From: Candidatus Gastranaerophilales bacterium
GTDB taxonomy: Bacteria > Cyanobacteriota > Vampirovibrionia > Gastranaerophilales > Gastranaerophilaceae
DNA length: 64,000 nucleotides
NCBI GenBank assembly: GCA_947624325.1
Contig: CANQJT010000004.1
Location: forward strand, 1 to 64,000
Reading direction: 5' to 3'
Each line of letters starts with the position of its first letter. Position 1 is the first letter of the stretch. Shown piece after piece: positions 734 to 63,350 of this stretch. Under the pieces are notes generated by a model, which made no database searches, was not told where the DNA came from, and saw nothing but the letters and a program-made list of their open reading frames with translations. The position numbers and the translations under genes are program-made.

Positions 734-764
734 TTGCAACGGGGGGGGGTAAAAGTGGTATAAT
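734..764 (+). promoter_or_regulatory. Promoter of the Kelch gene with a poly-G spacer
   Basis: A TATAAT -10 box (759-764) is preceded by TGG, forming an extended -10. The best -35 is TTGCAA (734-739), 19 bp upstream. Nine consecutive G (741-749) fill half of the spacer. Loss of one or two G would bring the spacing to 18 or 17 bp. The arrangement resembles known phase-variable promoters such as Neisseria porA. The switching itself is inferred. Confidence 0.6.
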
Positions 765-821
765 GATTTTGTTTACGAATATTGGTGATTTTTATGAGTG
801 ATGATAAAGAGAATATATTGC

Positions 822-1955
822 ATGAAAATTTTAAAAAACAATAAACTCTTAATTTTTCTTATGTGTTTGGTTATATTTATTATAGTTTTTTTATTTTTAC
901 AAGTAGGGTTTTGTTTTGATAAAAATGACATATTTAAAAAATATAGTTTTAAAAAAATATCTAATTTTATAGAATCAAGAGGTATAGATTCTACCGCAAC
1001 AGAATTAAGAGATGGGAGAATTATATATATTGGTGGTATTAATAAAAATTACTTATCTTCATCAGAAATTTATGATTTAAAATATAATAAATTTACAAAA
1101 ACTGCCAATTTGAATATTCCAAGAGCTCGTCATTCCGCAATTTTATTAAATGATGGAAATGTTTTGGTTACAGGCGGCAATACTGAAATAGATGGAAAAT
1201 ATAAAGTATTGAAAAGTGCAGAGATTTATAATGTGAAAAATAATAAATTTATAGAAATTTCAGATATGAACAATGAAATGTGGTATCATAAAATGTTCCT
1301 ATTAGAGAATGGCAATGTTTTGATTGTTTCAAATCCTAATAAATTAGAAATATATGATCCCCAAAAATCCGAATTCAAAAAAATAGAGGGTTTTTCTATT
1401 GTAAGTGATAATGAAATTTATAATTTTTTGCAATTATCTCAAAATACGATATTAATGTATCCCAAATATTACAAACTTCAAAAAACACCGCTTTTTATTA
1501 TGAATCTGAATGACTTATCATTTACTGAGTTAAAAATTAATTTATTTGATAGAAAAGTTTCCTCATACAGCATAGCCAAAATATCAGATGATAAAATTTT
1601 AGTTACAGGAGGAGATTATAATCAATTAGATTCAAAAATAATAGATTTAAATAAGATGATTGTAACTCAAACTTCAAACTTATCACAAAAAAGATATAGG
1701 CATATTTCAATAATTTTAGACAGAAATAATATTTTATTGTTAGGTGGCGAATCGGGTGTCGGACCTGAATTAAAAAGTTTAAAAACAACTGATTTGTATA
1801 ATATAAAAGAAGCTAAATTCATTAAATTTAAAAATATGAATTATAACAGAGGAGTTTGCAATTATTTAAAATTAAGCAACGGCAATTATATTATATATGG
1901 GGGTTATTCATTTTTGTATGGTAACCAACCACCTGAAATGTTGATATTAAAATAG
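822..1955 (+). CDS. Membrane-anchored Kelch-repeat protein
   Basis: The protein has 377 residues. A hydrophobic segment at residues 8-32 anchors it or exports it, and the rest consists of Kelch-type blades with GG turns (LVTGGN, LVTGGD, LLLGGE, IIYGGY) followed by SAEIYN/TTDLYN strands, so a beta-propeller is expected. An in-frame GTG at 798 is possible, but ATG 822 fits the hydrophobic start better. A 16-codon frame (ATG 794 to TAA 844) overlaps the start and may be a leader. The gene is preceded by a promoter with a G run. It is probably an envelope or surface binding protein; no catalytic motif is visible. Confidence 0.7.
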   Translation: MKILKNNKLLIFLMCLVIFIIVFLFLQVGFCFDKNDIFKKYSFKKISNFIESRGIDSTATELRDGRIIYIGGINKNYLSSSEIYDLKYNKFTKTANLNIPRARHSAILLNDGNVLVTGGNTEIDGKYKVLKSAEIYNVKNNKFIEISDMNNEMWYHKMFLLENGNVLIVSNPNKLEIYDPQKSEFKKIEGFSIVSDNEIYNFLQLSQNTILMYPKYYKLQKTPLFIMNLNDLSFTELKINLFDRKVSSYSIAKISDDKILVTGGDYNQLDSKIIDLNKMIVTQTSNLSQKRYRHISIILDRNNILLLGGESGVGPELKSLKTTDLYNIKEAKFIKFKNMNYNRGVCNYLKLSNGNYIIYGGYSFLYGNQPPEMLILK

Positions 1956-57428: not shown

Positions 57429-58925
57429 ATGGAAGAATATTTAAAGAATAAAAATTTTAAATGCTTAATGTGGGTTTTTATAATAATTTCAATAGTCCAC
57501 GTTATATATGCAGCAGTGACAATGAGGGGAATGTACGAAGACGGTGCATTCTATATGCTTGATCAATTAAACAGCTACTCCAACGGTATATTTAAAATAT
57601 CAAATGATTTCTCTCATCCGAGATTTTGTATTATGTTACTTTTGGACTTACCTTCAATGTTTGCTTTTTGGGTGCTGCATATACATAATAAATTTGCATT
57701 AATGATGATTTTTAGCTGTTCTTTGTTTCTTTTGCCCTTATTAGCTTTATGGTGGAACTATGTCCTGACTAAAAAAACAAAAAGACTTGATATTTTTTAT
57801 TGGTCTTTATTCTCATATTCTTTAATTATTATTACTTTCTCTATTTTTTCAGTAGTTGAATGTATTTTAGGAAGTATGCTCCACTTTGTATTATGGAATT
57901 ATTTGGCAGGAAAACTTGAATATAACAAAAAAGATTTAATATTAATTACTTTTCTTATTATAGTTATGTTTGGTACTTTTGAATATGTAATTATTCTCGG
58001 CTTAATTTTCTTTATCGCTTCACTATTGTATGCTAAACAAGAAGAAAATATTAAAAACAAAGCGGTCAAACTATATATAGGCATAGGGGCTCTTGGAGCT
58101 TCTATTTTTAACTTAATTTTTGCACTAAATGTACCCGGAGAAAAAGAAGAAATCACAAGATTTTTTATTGAAGGGTATAACTATTTACCGCATCTTTTAG
58201 AATTAAATTCTTCCATAAGTATCATAACTTTAATAATATTATTGGGTTTAATATTTAATAAAAAATCCATAGCATTAAAATCTATAATAATATTTTCATT
58301 AATATATATTCTCAATTTTATCAGATTGATTAATACAAGCTTATCTTCTGTTTCACCAATGTGGGAACAGCATATAAGAACCGTGCCTTGTTTTAGTATT
58401 CCTCTAATTTTTATTGTAATTTTCTTGTTTGATATACTCAAAAAAGAACAAAATTATATTAAATTAACAAACTATATTTGTATAGTTCTAATGTGCGGAA
58501 TAATGCAAACCGCTTGGCAGTTAGTTGATACATACTATTGGGATAAAAATATTCAATATATGAAATCTGAGCTGAACAAAACTCAGGATTTATTATACAT
58601 TCCGTCTGACCATGAAGAGATTTCAAGCTTTTTTAATCCTGCCTTAAGAAGATATATCTGGCATGGTGTTTTTACATCAACAAGTATTCTTTTTTCTGAA
58701 AGTTATGAGCAAAAAACATTATTATTAAACTATGATGAACCCATAGATGGCGGAAACGGAAGTTACAGAGAATTTTTATATATACCAAAAAATAATCCGG
58801 ATATGATTGCAATCCCTTGGGGCTGGTTTAATATAAAAAACAAATTTTGGGATTTAACAAAATGTGCGGATGCCCTGAAAAAATATGATATAGAACATAA
58901 TATAGAAAGTAAATTTAATGAATGA
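57429..58925 (+). CDS. Tandem polytopic membrane protein, copy 1 (GT-C-like?)
   Basis: The 498-residue protein has about ten predicted membrane helices. MRGMYEDGAFYML (residues 32-44), an acidic loop after the first helix, and HPRF in the first external loop recall the catalytic-loop acidic residues of GT-C glycosyltransferases. IHNKFALMMIFSCS and the C-terminal AIPWGW..IKN.FWDLTKCA are shared by all four copies. It has no G run (LAGKLEYNKK at that site). Its stop overlaps the copy 2 start by 8 bp. No characterised family was recognised. Confidence 0.6.
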   Translation: MEEYLKNKNFKCLMWVFIIISIVHVIYAAVTMRGMYEDGAFYMLDQLNSYSNGIFKISNDFSHPRFCIMLLLDLPSMFAFWVLHIHNKFALMMIFSCSLFLLPLLALWWNYVLTKKTKRLDIFYWSLFSYSLIIITFSIFSVVECILGSMLHFVLWNYLAGKLEYNKKDLILITFLIIVMFGTFEYVIILGLIFFIASLLYAKQEENIKNKAVKLYIGIGALGASIFNLIFALNVPGEKEEITRFFIEGYNYLPHLLELNSSISIITLIILLGLIFNKKSIALKSIIIFSLIYILNFIRLINTSLSSVSPMWEQHIRTVPCFSIPLIFIVIFLFDILKKEQNYIKLTNYICIVLMCGIMQTAWQLVDTYYWDKNIQYMKSELNKTQDLLYIPSDHEEISSFFNPALRRYIWHGVFTSTSILFSESYEQKTLLLNYDEPIDGGNGSYREFLYIPKNNPDMIAIPWGWFNIKNKFWDLTKCADALKKYDIEHNIESKFNE

Positions 58926-60414
58926 TTTTTTAAATAATAAATGTTTTAAAATCTTAATTTTATTATTTATATTAATATCTATAATTCATATTATATATGC
59001 AACAATAACGATGCGAGGGATGTACTTAGACGGGGCATTCTATATGCTTAATCAATTAGACAGCTTCTCTATGGGAATTATTAAAATATCCCATGATATA
59101 TCTCATCCCAGATTTTTTATAATGACCCTACTACAAATTCCGACAATTCTTTCTTATTTTATTTTAAAGATACATAATAAATTTGCACTAATGATGATTT
59201 TTAGTTGTTCTATATTCCTTTTGCCCTTATTAGTTTTATCGTGGAACTATCTTCTTACTAAAAGGACTCAAAGATTTGATATTTTCTTCTTCTCGTTATT
59301 TTCTTATTGCGGAATAATAACCGTTTATTTAATATACGGAATTGTTGAATCTATATTAGGCTGTATGCTTAATTGTATTTTATGGAATTATTTAGCTGCA
59401 AAAATAAACTATACTAAGAAAGATTCAATTATAATTGCATTTTTAACTATACTATTGTATCAAACATTTGAATATATTATTTATATAGGTATAATTTTCT
59501 TTATTGCATCAATTATGTATGCAAAAAGAGAAACAAATCTTAAAAACAAAATAACAAAATTTTTAATAGGAATAGGCTCACTTGGAGCATCAATATATAA
59601 TTTATTTTTCATAATAAAAGTACCGGGCGAATATAGTGAAATTATAAGATTTTTTAAAGAAAGTTATTTTTATTTTTCACATATAACAAACCTCAATATT
59701 TCAACAAGTATAATTACATTAATATTTCTAATTTTTATAGCATTAAAAAAAGAATCAACAGGAATAAAAACAATTTTCTTATTTTCTTTAATTTGTATTA
59801 TTAATTTTGTAAGATTATTAGTATCATTAAAAACATCTATATCACCATTATATGAAAGTTCCTTTCGGACATTGATTTGTTATGCTTTTCCGATAATGAT
59901 AATAATAACTTGTATTTTAGATTTTAAGCAAAAGGAACAAAACCTAATTAAAATTAAAAATTTGATATGTATAGTATTAATATGCGGTATATTTCAAACT
60001 GCTTGGCAGATAGTTAATACATATTATTGGGATAAAAATATTCAATATATGAAATCAGAATTGAATAAAACTCAAGATTTATTATATATTCCCTCTGAAC
60101 ATGAAGATATATCGGGAAATATAAATCCTGAATTAAGACGATATATACCATACTGCTGTTATGCAACAATGAGTATATTATTTTCTGATACATACGAACA
60201 AAAAACATTATTATTAAATTATGACGAAGAAAGAGATCAAATTAATTTATCTTACAGAGAATCATTATTTGTTCCCAAGAAAAATAAAGAATTTATAGCA
60301 ATCCCTTGGGGCTGGTATAATATTAAAAATGAATTTTGGGATTTAACAAAATGTGCGGAAGCACTGAAGAAATATGATATAGAACATAATATAGAAAGTA
60401 AATATAATGAATGA
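58918..60414 (+). CDS. Tandem polytopic membrane protein, copy 2
   Basis: The 498-residue protein shares MRGMYLDGAFYML, HPRF, IHNKFALMMIFSCS and the conserved C-terminal AIPWGWYNIKNEFWDL block with the other copies, but the DNA is the most divergent of the four. There is no G run. The segment after about residue 225 differs strongly from the others. The gene overlaps copies 1 and 3 by 8 bp. Confidence 0.6.
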   Translation: MNDFLNNKCFKILILLFILISIIHIIYATITMRGMYLDGAFYMLNQLDSFSMGIIKISHDISHPRFFIMTLLQIPTILSYFILKIHNKFALMMIFSCSIFLLPLLVLSWNYLLTKRTQRFDIFFFSLFSYCGIITVYLIYGIVESILGCMLNCILWNYLAAKINYTKKDSIIIAFLTILLYQTFEYIIYIGIIFFIASIMYAKRETNLKNKITKFLIGIGSLGASIYNLFFIIKVPGEYSEIIRFFKESYFYFSHITNLNISTSIITLIFLIFIALKKESTGIKTIFLFSLICIINFVRLLVSLKTSISPLYESSFRTLICYAFPIMIIITCILDFKQKEQNLIKIKNLICIVLICGIFQTAWQIVNTYYWDKNIQYMKSELNKTQDLLYIPSEHEDISGNINPELRRYIPYCCYATMSILFSDTYEQKTLLLNYDEERDQINLSYRESLFVPKKNKEFIAIPWGWYNIKNEFWDLTKCAEALKKYDIEHNIESKYNE

Positions 60415-61870
60415 ATTTTTAAATAATAAAATATATAAATTTTTGATGTGGTTTTTTATAATAATTTCAATAGTCCACGTTATATATGCAACAGTAACAA
60501 TGAGAGGAATGTATATGGATGGTGCCCATTACATGTTAAACGAATTAAACAATTATTCAAACGGCATATTAAGATTTTCATTTGATATAACACATCCCAG
60601 ATTCTTTATTTTGGCATTATTAGAATTACCATCAATGATAGCTTTTTTTGGGTTACATATACATAATAAATTCGCATTGATGATGATTTTTAGTTGTTCT
60701 ATGTTCCTTTTGCCCTTATTAGCTTTATGGTGGAACTATGTCCTGACTAAAAGAACAAAAAGACTTGATATTTTTTATTGGTCTTTATTTTCATATTCTC
60801 TAATTATTATTACTTTCTCTATTTATTCTATTGTTGAATGTATTTTAGGAAGCATGCTCCACTTTGTATTATGGAACTATTTGGCAATGGGGGGGGGGAG
60901 TAAATATAACAAAAGAGATATAGCTTTAATTACTTTTCTTATTATAGTTATGTTTGGAACATATGAATATGTAATTATTCTCGGCATAATTTTCTTTATC
61001 GCAGCATTAATGTATGCTAAACGGGAAGAAAATATTAAAAATAAAGCTGTTAAATTATATATAGGTATAGGTGCTCTTGGGACTTCTATTTTTGACTTAA
61101 TTTTTGTACTGAATGTACCCGGAGAAAAAGGAGAGTTTTTAAGATATATAAATGAATTGTATATTAATATACCCAATTTATTTAATTTAAATCTTTCAAT
61201 AAGCTTTTTAACCTTGCTATTATTATTTTTATTGATATTTATACAAAAAAATTTAAATAATAAATTTTTAATTTTTACAATTTTTTTATTTGTTATAAAT
61301 TTTACATCTCTTTGTAATAAATTATATTTTTCTCTATATCCTTTAGGAGAACAATCTCTTAGAGTAATTGCTTGTTTTGCACTTCCTATAATTTTTACAA
61401 TAATATTAATATTTGATATACTCAAAAAAGAACAAAATTATATTAAATTAACAAACTATATTTGTATAGTTTTAATGTGCGGAATATTTCAAACCGCTTG
61501 GCAATTGATTGATACATACCATTGGGATAAAAATATTCAATATATGAAATTTGAGCTTAATAAAACTGAAGATTTTTTATATATTGCTCCTGAACATGAA
61601 GAAATATCAAGTTATTACAATCCAAAGTTTAGAAGATATATTGCAGACTGGGTATTAACTGCAACAAGTATATTATTTTCTGAAAGTTATGAACAAAAAG
61701 CATTACTTATATTATATGGTACATATATTCCTAAAGATAATAAAGATATACTTGCAATTCCTTGGGGTTGGTATAATATTAAAAATGAATTTTGGGATTT
61801 AACAAAATGTGCAGAAACACTGAATAATTACAATATAGAACATAATATAGAAAGTAAATATAATGAATGA
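60407..61870 (+). CDS. Tandem polytopic membrane protein, copy 3, with a 10-G run
   Basis: The 487-residue protein has the same architecture (MRGMYMDGAHYML, HPRF, IHNKFALMM). Ten G at 60889-60898 encode M-Gly-Gly-Gly from residue 161 in a loop. One G more gives TAG-type termination at once (GAG TAA), and one less reaches TAG within eight codons, so slippage would truncate it. The gene is currently in frame. The 5' end (137 bp) and a 3' block (116 bp) are identical to copy 4. Confidence 0.65.
   Translation: MNEFLNNKIYKFLMWFFIIISIVHVIYATVTMRGMYMDGAHYMLNELNNYSNGILRFSFDITHPRFFILALLELPSMIAFFGLHIHNKFALMMIFSCSMFLLPLLALWWNYVLTKRTKRLDIFYWSLFSYSLIIITFSIYSIVECILGSMLHFVLWNYLAMGGGSKYNKRDIALITFLIIVMFGTYEYVIILGIIFFIAALMYAKREENIKNKAVKLYIGIGALGTSIFDLIFVLNVPGEKGEFLRYINELYINIPNLFNLNLSISFLTLLLLFLLIFIQKNLNNKFLIFTIFLFVINFTSLCNKLYFSLYPLGEQSLRVIACFALPIIFTIILIFDILKKEQNYIKLTNYICIVLMCGIFQTAWQLIDTYHWDKNIQYMKFELNKTEDFLYIAPEHEEISSYYNPKFRRYIADWVLTATSILFSESYEQKALLILYGTYIPKDNKDILAIPWGWYNIKNEFWDLTKCAETLNNYNIEHNIESKYNE
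60889..60898 (+). repeat. Poly-G run in copy 3
   Basis: Ten consecutive G in an AT-rich coding sequence, in frame, in a loop at residues 161-164. A typical contingency-tract length. Confidence 0.9.
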
Positions 61871-63350
61871 ATTTTTAAATAATAAAATATATAAATTTTT
61901 GATGTGGTTTTTTATAATAATTTCAATAGTCCACGTTATATATGCAACAGTAACAATGAGAGGAATGTACTTAGACGGGGCTTTTTATATTCTTGATCAA
62001 TTAAATAGGTACTCTAATGGAATATATACTATAACTTCTTGTTCAGATCACCCCAGATTTTTTATATTGACATTACTACAATCACCATCAATTATAGCAT
62101 ATTCTATTTTACATATACATAATAAATTCGCATTAATGATGATTTTTAGCTGTTCTATGTTCCTTTTGCCCTTATTAGCTCTATGGTGGAACTATGTCCT
62201 GATTAAAAAAACAAAAAGACTTGATATTTTTTATTGGTCTTTATTTTCATATTCTTTAATTATTATTACTTTCTCTATTTTTTCCATAGTTGAATGTATT
62301 TTAGGAAGTATGCTCCACTTTGTATTATGGAATTATTTGGCAATGGGGGGGGGTAAATATAACAAAAGAGATATAGCTTTAATTACTTTTCTTATTATAG
62401 TTATGTTTGGTACTTTTGAATATGTAATTATTCTCGGCTTAATTTTCTTTATCGCTTCACTATTGTATGCTAAACAAGAAGAAAATATTAAAAACAAAGC
62501 GGTCAAACTATATATAGGCATAGGGGCTCTTGGAGCTTCTATTTTTAACTTAATTTTTGTACTAAATGTACCAAATGAAAAATGGGAAATTATAAGATTT
62601 TTTAATGAAATTTATGTTACACTTCCTCATATATTTAATATAAATTTTTCAATAAGTTTGATTACAATACTAATGCTTTGTATATTAATATATAAAAAAA
62701 GAAAAATTGATTTTAAATTAACTTTATTGTTTATTTCTTTATTTATCTTGAATTTTATACGAATTTTATATTGTATTTCAACCTCTTTAAATCCAATGTA
62801 TGAACAAGCTCTAAGAGTAATTGCTTGTTTTGCACTTCCTATAATTTTTACAATAATATTAATATTTGATATACTCAAAAAAGAACAAAATTATATTAAA
62901 TTAACAAACTATATTTGTATAGTTTTAATATGCGGAATATTTCAAACCGCTTGGCAGTTGGTTGATACATACTATTGGAATAAAAATATTCAATATATGA
63001 AATCTGAGCTTAATAAAACTCAAGATTTATTATACATTCCGTCTGAACATGAAGAAATATCAAGTTTATATAATTCTAACTTAAGAAGATATATATGGCA
63101 CAGAATGTATGCAGCAACAAGTATAGTTTTTTCTGAAAGCTATGAACAAAAAACATTGCTGGTAAATTATGATTATAATTATGAGCCAATGCAGGGACAT
63201 CATAGAGAATATTTATATGTCGTTGATAATACAACTATAGCAATACCTTGGGAAAAATTTAATATTAAAAATAAATTTTGGGATTTAACAAAATGTGCGG
63301 ATGCACTCCAAAAGTATGATATAGAACACAATATTAACCAAGATAAATAA
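61863..63350 (+). CDS. Tandem polytopic membrane protein, copy 4, with a 9-G run
   Basis: The 495-residue protein shares MRGMYLDGAFYIL, HPRF and the IHNKFALMM block. Nine G at 62345-62353 occupy the same codon position as in copy 3, and a shift of one base either way gives a stop within eight codons. The DNA is a mosaic: identical to copy 3 at the 5' end, identical to copy 1 over 181 bp in the middle, and identical to copy 3 near the 3' end. tilS follows after 20 bp. Confidence 0.65.
   Translation: MNEFLNNKIYKFLMWFFIIISIVHVIYATVTMRGMYLDGAFYILDQLNRYSNGIYTITSCSDHPRFFILTLLQSPSIIAYSILHIHNKFALMMIFSCSMFLLPLLALWWNYVLIKKTKRLDIFYWSLFSYSLIIITFSIFSIVECILGSMLHFVLWNYLAMGGGKYNKRDIALITFLIIVMFGTFEYVIILGLIFFIASLLYAKQEENIKNKAVKLYIGIGALGASIFNLIFVLNVPNEKWEIIRFFNEIYVTLPHIFNINFSISLITILMLCILIYKKRKIDFKLTLLFISLFILNFIRILYCISTSLNPMYEQALRVIACFALPIIFTIILIFDILKKEQNYIKLTNYICIVLICGIFQTAWQLVDTYYWNKNIQYMKSELNKTQDLLYIPSEHEEISSLYNSNLRRYIWHRMYAATSIVFSESYEQKTLLVNYDYNYEPMQGHHREYLYVVDNTTIAIPWEKFNIKNKFWDLTKCADALQKYDIEHNINQDK
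62345..62353 (+). repeat. Poly-G run in copy 4
   Basis: Nine consecutive G, in frame at residue 161, aligned with the run in copy 3. One extra G creates an immediate TAA. Confidence 0.9.

Follow-up and report, generated by a model that had tools for sequence, protein, structure and literature searches.

In about 15 species of a single Gastranaerophilales genus, a Kelch gene family and several other genes are preceded by a short promoter module in which a run of guanines sits between a -35-like element and an extended -10. The module consensus reads TTGynny - G8..G11 - TAAAArTGGTATAAT. We consider it quite probable that this promoter is phase-variable, with the G run as its unstable element, acting as a slip-prone expression switch.

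The module was identified near the start of the window, the whole 64,000-nt stretch of DNA analysed in this study, where it lies on the forward strand. The -35-like element TTGCAA (734-739; family consensus TTGynn) is followed by a single C (740), the G9 run (741-749), which forms the variable part of the spacer, and the conserved TAAAAGTGG (750-758), which joins the run to the -10 and contains the TGG of the extended -10. TATAAT occupies 759-764, giving a run-to-TATAAT distance of 9 nt, and the extended -10 TGGTATAAT spans 756-764. The spacer (740-758) is 19 nt, and direct reading of the sequence confirmed the arrangement and spacing given by an earlier sequence-only reading. Overlapping matches to GGGGGGGG numbered seven in the window, from three runs, against 0.25 expected from shuffles, and none of 100 shuffles reached seven. 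The length of the G9 run is far above chance expectation; the G/C runs of the window measured 1-5 and then 9, 9 and 10, with the intermediate lengths absent. A generic sigma-70 scan restricted to spacers of 16-18 nt did not pick the window promoter. Upstream of the promoter, at 100-355, two similar blocks (GAAGAGAAG..CTTCTCTTCTTTTC) were observed, the ends of each apparently complementary.

To follow the module across genomes, we searched for TTGC, any 3-25 bases and TAAAANTGGTATAAT, with the reversed pattern as control. The search returned 42 exact sites in 13/41 same-genus genomes and the control returned none; one of the 42 had no G run and two had an interrupted run. TAAAANTGGTATAAT alone occurred at 63 places in 21/41 genomes (control, 9 places), and its sites with a G run directly ahead had TTGC or TTGT just upstream, while the run-less sites mostly looked unrelated. 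From all loci we obtained 48 distinct run-bearing sites, part of which were first found with TTGC in the pattern, although all of those also match the TTGC-free pattern. TTG stood upstream of the run in 48/48 of them, at an offset of 7 nt in 43, 6 nt in one, 8 nt in three and 11 nt in one; among the other G runs of the window's own genome, TTG at 6-8 nt was found in 4/46. Across the order, the version with seven Gs was present in 12/383 genomes, and all 12 fell within a single one of the 52 genera, the window's own.

The number of runs of eight or more ranged from 0 to 121 across 35 same-genus genomes, of which 14 had 13 or fewer (run-poor) and 21 had 18 or more (run-rich). The module was present in 12 of the 21 run-rich genomes versus none of the 14 run-poor ones. 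In the family, 137/155 genomes, with G060 counted here, carried at least one long run and many carried tens. Together with the spread within the genus, this indicates that long G runs are a family trait that is quickly gained or lost. We also asked whether genomes become run-rich by losing mismatch repair, an explanation rejected for MutS: mutS1 was above cut-off in 39/41 same-genus genomes, own genome included, and the mutS1-less G001 has one run (G061 lies outside the run count). With MutS1 present, slippage is not raised by MutS loss.

Run lengths at the 48 sites were G8 in 5, G9 in 30 (an A interrupts two of these), G10 in 11 and G11 in 2. The spacers were 17 nt (1 site), 18 nt (4), 19 nt (26), 20 nt (13), 21 nt (2), 22 nt (1) and 23 nt (1), so that 45/48 fell within 18-21 nt with a mode of 19, and the classical 16-18 nt range was represented by the single 17 and the four 18s. 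The sequence-only reading had described the run as a switch of a surface-protein gene that would reach an optimal 17 bp by loss of two Gs. The first half is supported, as the run does lie in the promoter spacer of a probable surface-protein gene; the 17-bp optimum is not supported, since the one spacer of 17 arose through loss of an A and no G7 occurred among the 48 sites. Both interrupted runs, which are presumably frozen, have a spacer of 19, and this, with the mode of 19, suggests that a 19-nt spacer is usable. The extended -10 perhaps relaxes the spacing requirement.

The usual spacer is 17 nt, and an extended -10 may need no contact at the -35. Because the modal spacer exceeds the usual one and the extended -10 is perhaps independent of the -35, run length might matter little, which counts against the proposed switch. 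The run could then mutate without effect, the extended -10 alone driving transcription and spacing being neutral. The perfect TGnTATAAT, the occurrence of spacers from 17 to 23 and a mode that is not a classical optimum agree with this, but an idle upstream element would hardly account for the fixed place of TTG in every site, and nearly all copies retain the run, among them those ahead of unrelated genes. We regard neutral spacing as unlikely.

A looser search (G8 or more, 2-14 bases, TATAAT) gave at least 90 distinct sites. Among the matches listed, the distance from run to TATAAT was exactly 9 nt in 60/90, and 39 of those 60 read TAAAArTGG; 53/90 began with TAAAA after the run. The reversed control of this search was not empty (up to 7 overlapping matches per genome), indicating that some of the 30 sites without the 9-nt distance are probably due to chance. 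The constant distance shows that the runs are not scattered without relation to promoters and frames, in keeping with the sequence-only reading. At nadA, repeats tune the distance between the NadR operator and the promoter. TTGynny or TAAAArTGG might likewise be the site of a regulator or an alternative sigma factor, with the run tuning operator-promoter distance instead of sigma spacing. The conservation of TAAAA beyond the extended -10 and a -35-like element whose fourth base is C or T throughout the 48-site set would fit such a site. The TTG / TATAAT geometry is nevertheless that of a housekeeping promoter and no regulator was identified, so this explanation seems rather improbable. A second kind of run promoter was observed at G000:C3:21122, in the window's own genome, and at G034:C4:161528, where the G run is followed by TAAGTATAAT at a distance of 4 nt, not 9; at the former, TTGCGT precedes.

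To assess whether run length varies more than its surroundings, we compared related copies. Of 20 pairs whose downstream DNA was 85% or more identical across 100 nt or more, 14 differed in run length and 6 were equal; at the stricter thresholds of 93% and 300 nt, 6/8 pairs differed. The pairs are not independent, and the lengths are assembly consensus values compared between species and loci, with one genome per species. At an identity of 99.7% over 333 nt, L061 and L113 carry G10 and G9, respectively. Within this comparison of species and loci, run length varies more than the flanks.

The nearest named record belongs to a Candidatus Gastranaerophilales MAG (isolate Lapin-032__bin58; contig CANQNW010000001.1, G034:C1), which shares a forward-strand block at 489-2034 with 96.97% identity over 1552 nt. 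The window promoter has G9 and its G034 ortholog has G8. The Kelch gene (822-1955, versus G034:C1:102408-103517) is 99.4% identical in DNA, versus 88.1% for mutS between the two genomes, indicating a probable recent exchange of the window gene. Identity drops to about 91% in the promoter flank; the G9/G8 difference therefore falls outside the best-matching stretch and is not by itself proof of fast slippage. When the 62 runs of the window's genome were compared with 48 run loci of G034, two paired places were obtained, G9/G8 at the window promoter and G9/G9, in a comparison set of run-carrying loci only, where orthologous run-less places could not show up. With two paired places, this comparison was rejected as a rate estimate, and the module-family pairs were used instead.

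The gene behind the window module encodes a Kelch beta-propeller with an N-terminal hydrophobic segment (822-1955, forward strand; listed as 798-1955 from GTG). Kelch_4 (4.5e-18), Kelch_6 (3.2e-15) and Kelch_1 all scored above the Pfam cut-off. In the family, the start codon lies about 29 nt past the -10, with a GGTG-like ribosome site. At that place the window has ATG 794, which opens an ORF of 16 codons only (MSDDKENILHENFKKQ; 794-844, forward strand) because of small deletions near the start relative to G034, where the same start reads in frame into Kelch. The window Kelch frame therefore most likely starts at ATG 822, not at the family's usual ATG 794.

For each site we took as the downstream protein the longest frame of at least 50 aa starting within 220 nt. 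Such a protein was present at 45/48 sites, and 27/45 joined the window Kelch protein by single-linkage BLASTP; the remainder split into 12 small groups, among which are an HTH protein and several membrane proteins. In the window's own genome, 4/4 Kelch_6 loci lie behind the module, one of them with an interrupted run, and the Kelch genes of the run-poor G001, G006, G021 and G060 are without it. Many of the 27 Kelch-family proteins, as judged from sequence, begin with a hydrophobic segment, in some followed by a cysteine as in lipoproteins, and export of the module-linked Kelch proteins is predicted to be likely.

We then examined how far similarity between sites extends on either side of the module. 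Fourteen pairs had an identity of at least 78% over the first 200 nt downstream, and in 11 of them the upstream 40 nt showed identities of 0.42-0.61, the level of random pairs (0.50, sd 0.07); the exceptions were L063/L126 (0.72), L139/L140 (0.83) and window/G034 (0.93). Relative to the run start, the left BLAST edges of the downstream similarity fell between -12 and +2 for nine pairs and at about -20 for L070/L084. Plain inheritance of the promoter with its gene would extend similarity upstream, which was mostly not seen, so genes appear to have been swapped at the module. Conversely, nine pairs with common upstream DNA, picked by eye, diverged 25-100 nt past the run start and had different genes behind. 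Divergence began at +25 in L071/L079, +34 in L062/L112 and in L112/L160, +56 in window/L088, +67 in C6:118262 site/L144, +71 in L067/L081, +74 in C6:103780 site/L075, +81 in C6:103780 site/L128 and +100 in window/L080. L079 matches L071 upstream as far as the -10 (0.9 kb, 89%) and the C6:101655 gene downstream from the G run (1.5 kb, 85%), and is the clearest candidate joint, with both halves meeting at the module. On the simplest reading, recombination in the short common promoter-leader sequence would swap the downstream gene.

These breaks on both sides could mean that the module is chiefly a recombination junction for gene exchange, with length variation as a by-product. The promoter parts are conserved in every copy, however, so the module should also act as a promoter, and ordinary recombination between paralogues could equally explain the exchange; a junction role in place of the switch thus appears very improbable. 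A combined reading, in which slippage tuning and recombinational gene replacement meet in a plug-in expression site, is a possibility to which we give somewhat less than even weight: a slip-prone promoter of about 31 nt would travel with, and receive, surface genes across one genus.

The main doubt about gene swapping is chimeric assembly at the repeated 31-nt module. Each draft genome consists of tens to hundreds of contigs, which often end near modules, and the window contig itself begins 733 nt upstream. Homopolymer miscalls together with chimeric joins could in principle have produced both the length differences and the breaks. The module was nevertheless assembled alike in about 15 genomes, and common upstream flanks of 0.9-1.4 kb make random chimeras unlikely, so that an assembly artefact is the least credible explanation and scarcely to be expected.

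A dispersed repeat of about 85 nt (GTAGGTTGGGTTTGACTACTTTTGCC..CATAACCCAAC) was also observed. Its window copy (1957-2043, unstranded) directly follows the Kelch gene and contains the end of the G034-shared block. Further copies are at L050, L073, L143, L141, L145, L121, L147 and L176; in other copies than the window's the repeat lies inside the coding N-terminus of MNDKKY-type Kelch genes, and it is also found in run-poor species. In L160/L142, TTTGCACC-G10-TAAAAGCAAGTAGG resembles the run joined to the repeat 3' of the window Kelch gene, over a match of about 14 nt, which raised the idea of an empty site.

The sequence-only reading had further proposed that G tracts serve the whole genome as a common switch for surface proteins. 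The window's genome (1.98 Mb, 20 contigs) contains 62 G runs of 8-11 on both strands, and counts of 62 at both thresholds, seven or more and eight or more, indicate that runs of exactly seven are absent. Lengths were 5 (43 runs), 6 (1), 7 (0), 8 (4), 9 (33), 10 (20) and 11 (5), counted in about 250 kb fetched around the runs plus the window, with the figures for 5 and 6 applying to that DNA only. Nine runs lie in module-type promoters and 53 elsewhere; by manual tally, 25 of the 53 are in open frames (protein of at least 170 aa), 13 split a gene (at least 40 aa in two frames, both sides of the run) and 15 are at gene or contig ends, in short frames or intergenic. Two paralogue pairs differ in state: C3:203496 (G9) is open for 978 aa versus C3:207122 (G10), which is split, and C13:5523 (G9) is open versus C13:6657 (G10), also split.

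We scanned 40 run-bearing proteins or fragments, and 29 had a Pfam match at E 0.001. The matches included nucleotide-sugar dehydratases/epimerases, glycosyltransferases (PMT_2, GT1-like, GT2, GT92), polysaccharide pyruvyl transferase, acyl- and hexapeptide transferases, methyltransferases, radical SAM, thiamine enzymes, a carboxylesterase, the pilin-type N_methyl motif and the Chlamydia PMP repeat; weak matches below the curated cut-off include PMT_2 and two of three Hexapep. A betacoronavirus NS6 match in a pilin-like protein was taken as spurious. The idea of a genome-wide switch is supported, and its restriction to surface proteins holds loosely, the coding runs being mostly in glycan-building genes. 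The genome shows the traits of a simple-repeat phasome: many long runs, a length gap below 8, a position in or ahead of surface and glycan genes, and open as well as split frames. Repeat tracts of this kind in Campylobacter and Neisseria are known for on/off switching by frame.

The two coding runs of the window are both open as assembled: a G10 run (60889-60898, forward strand) in a membrane-protein ORF (60407-61870) and a G9 run (62345-62353, forward strand) at the homologous place in the next paralogue (61863-63350). They belong to four tandem paralogous membrane-protein genes (57429-63350). The G run is confined to the third and fourth of these, in which it occupies the same place; the first has GGCAGGAAAA there. 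The tandem membrane proteins with these runs gave no Pfam match. Elsewhere in the genome, a G9 directly ahead of the start of a 2147-aa adhesin-like protein with the Chlamydia PMP repeat (G000:C3:192639, L039:3040) may act on translation start, not on promoter spacing. Some pilin-like genes that start alike have C runs within their first few codons (G000:C8:37049, C8:49061, C12:38507), likely frame switches of prepilin-type proteins.

In the proposed mechanism, replication slippage in the G run would alter the -35/-10 spacing, mostly within 18-21 nt, and the altered spacing would tune each gene up or down in a fraction of cells. By likeness to Neisseria porA and opc and to Mycoplasma vlp, we infer that this tuning may occur by slipped-strand events. 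Coding G runs would switch glycan and surface genes by frame, alongside the promoter runs. From the homology edges, the module also appears as a joint where loci and species trade the genes behind it, probably by recombination in the common promoter-leader.

Mycoplasma agalactiae vpma uses recombination-based switching, in which the promoter region is a joint for different surface genes. The module resembles it in this joint role but differs in that no recombinase or site-specific site was identified at it and in that the joins are between species and loci, not within a culture. According to PMC2791445, Neisseria porA, opc and fetA have phase-variable promoters with a homopolymeric run between -35 and -10 of a surface-protein gene. 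The module is alike in having a homopolymer in the same position ahead of a probable surface-protein gene. Unlike the single genes of Neisseria, Gastranaerophilales has one conserved module ahead of unrelated genes as well as a gene family, its spacers being mostly 18-21 and its extended -10 perfect, known here from sequence alone. In Mycoplasma hyorhinis vlp, as outlined in PMC10502178, each member of a surface lipoprotein family has a promoter-region homopolymer that switches transcription. The module is similar by this description, with homopolymers in promoters across a gene family, but it carries poly-G and precedes Kelch propellers, whereas vlp has poly-A and Vlp lipoproteins and belongs to another phylum. 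The Campylobacter and Neisseria phasomes comprise tens of repeat tracts per genome in glycan and surface genes, as summarised in PMC11868660, and one Gastranaerophilales genome is comparable in this. It differs from them in having MutS1 present and a genus-specific promoter module.

In the open-licence literature we found no paper on point for phase variation, homopolymers or simple sequence repeats in Gastranaerophilales, Melainabacteria or Vampirovibrio. The principle is already known; the lineage, the conserved module, its use ahead of unrelated genes and its putative joint role are undescribed in that literature. If the proposed reading is true, an uncultured, cyanobacteria-related gut lineage carries tens of poly-G contingency loci per genome. 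The state of the promoter module would be readable from DNA alone in existing metagenomes, and both switching inside a host and the exchange of genes at a defined joint would be measurable without culture.
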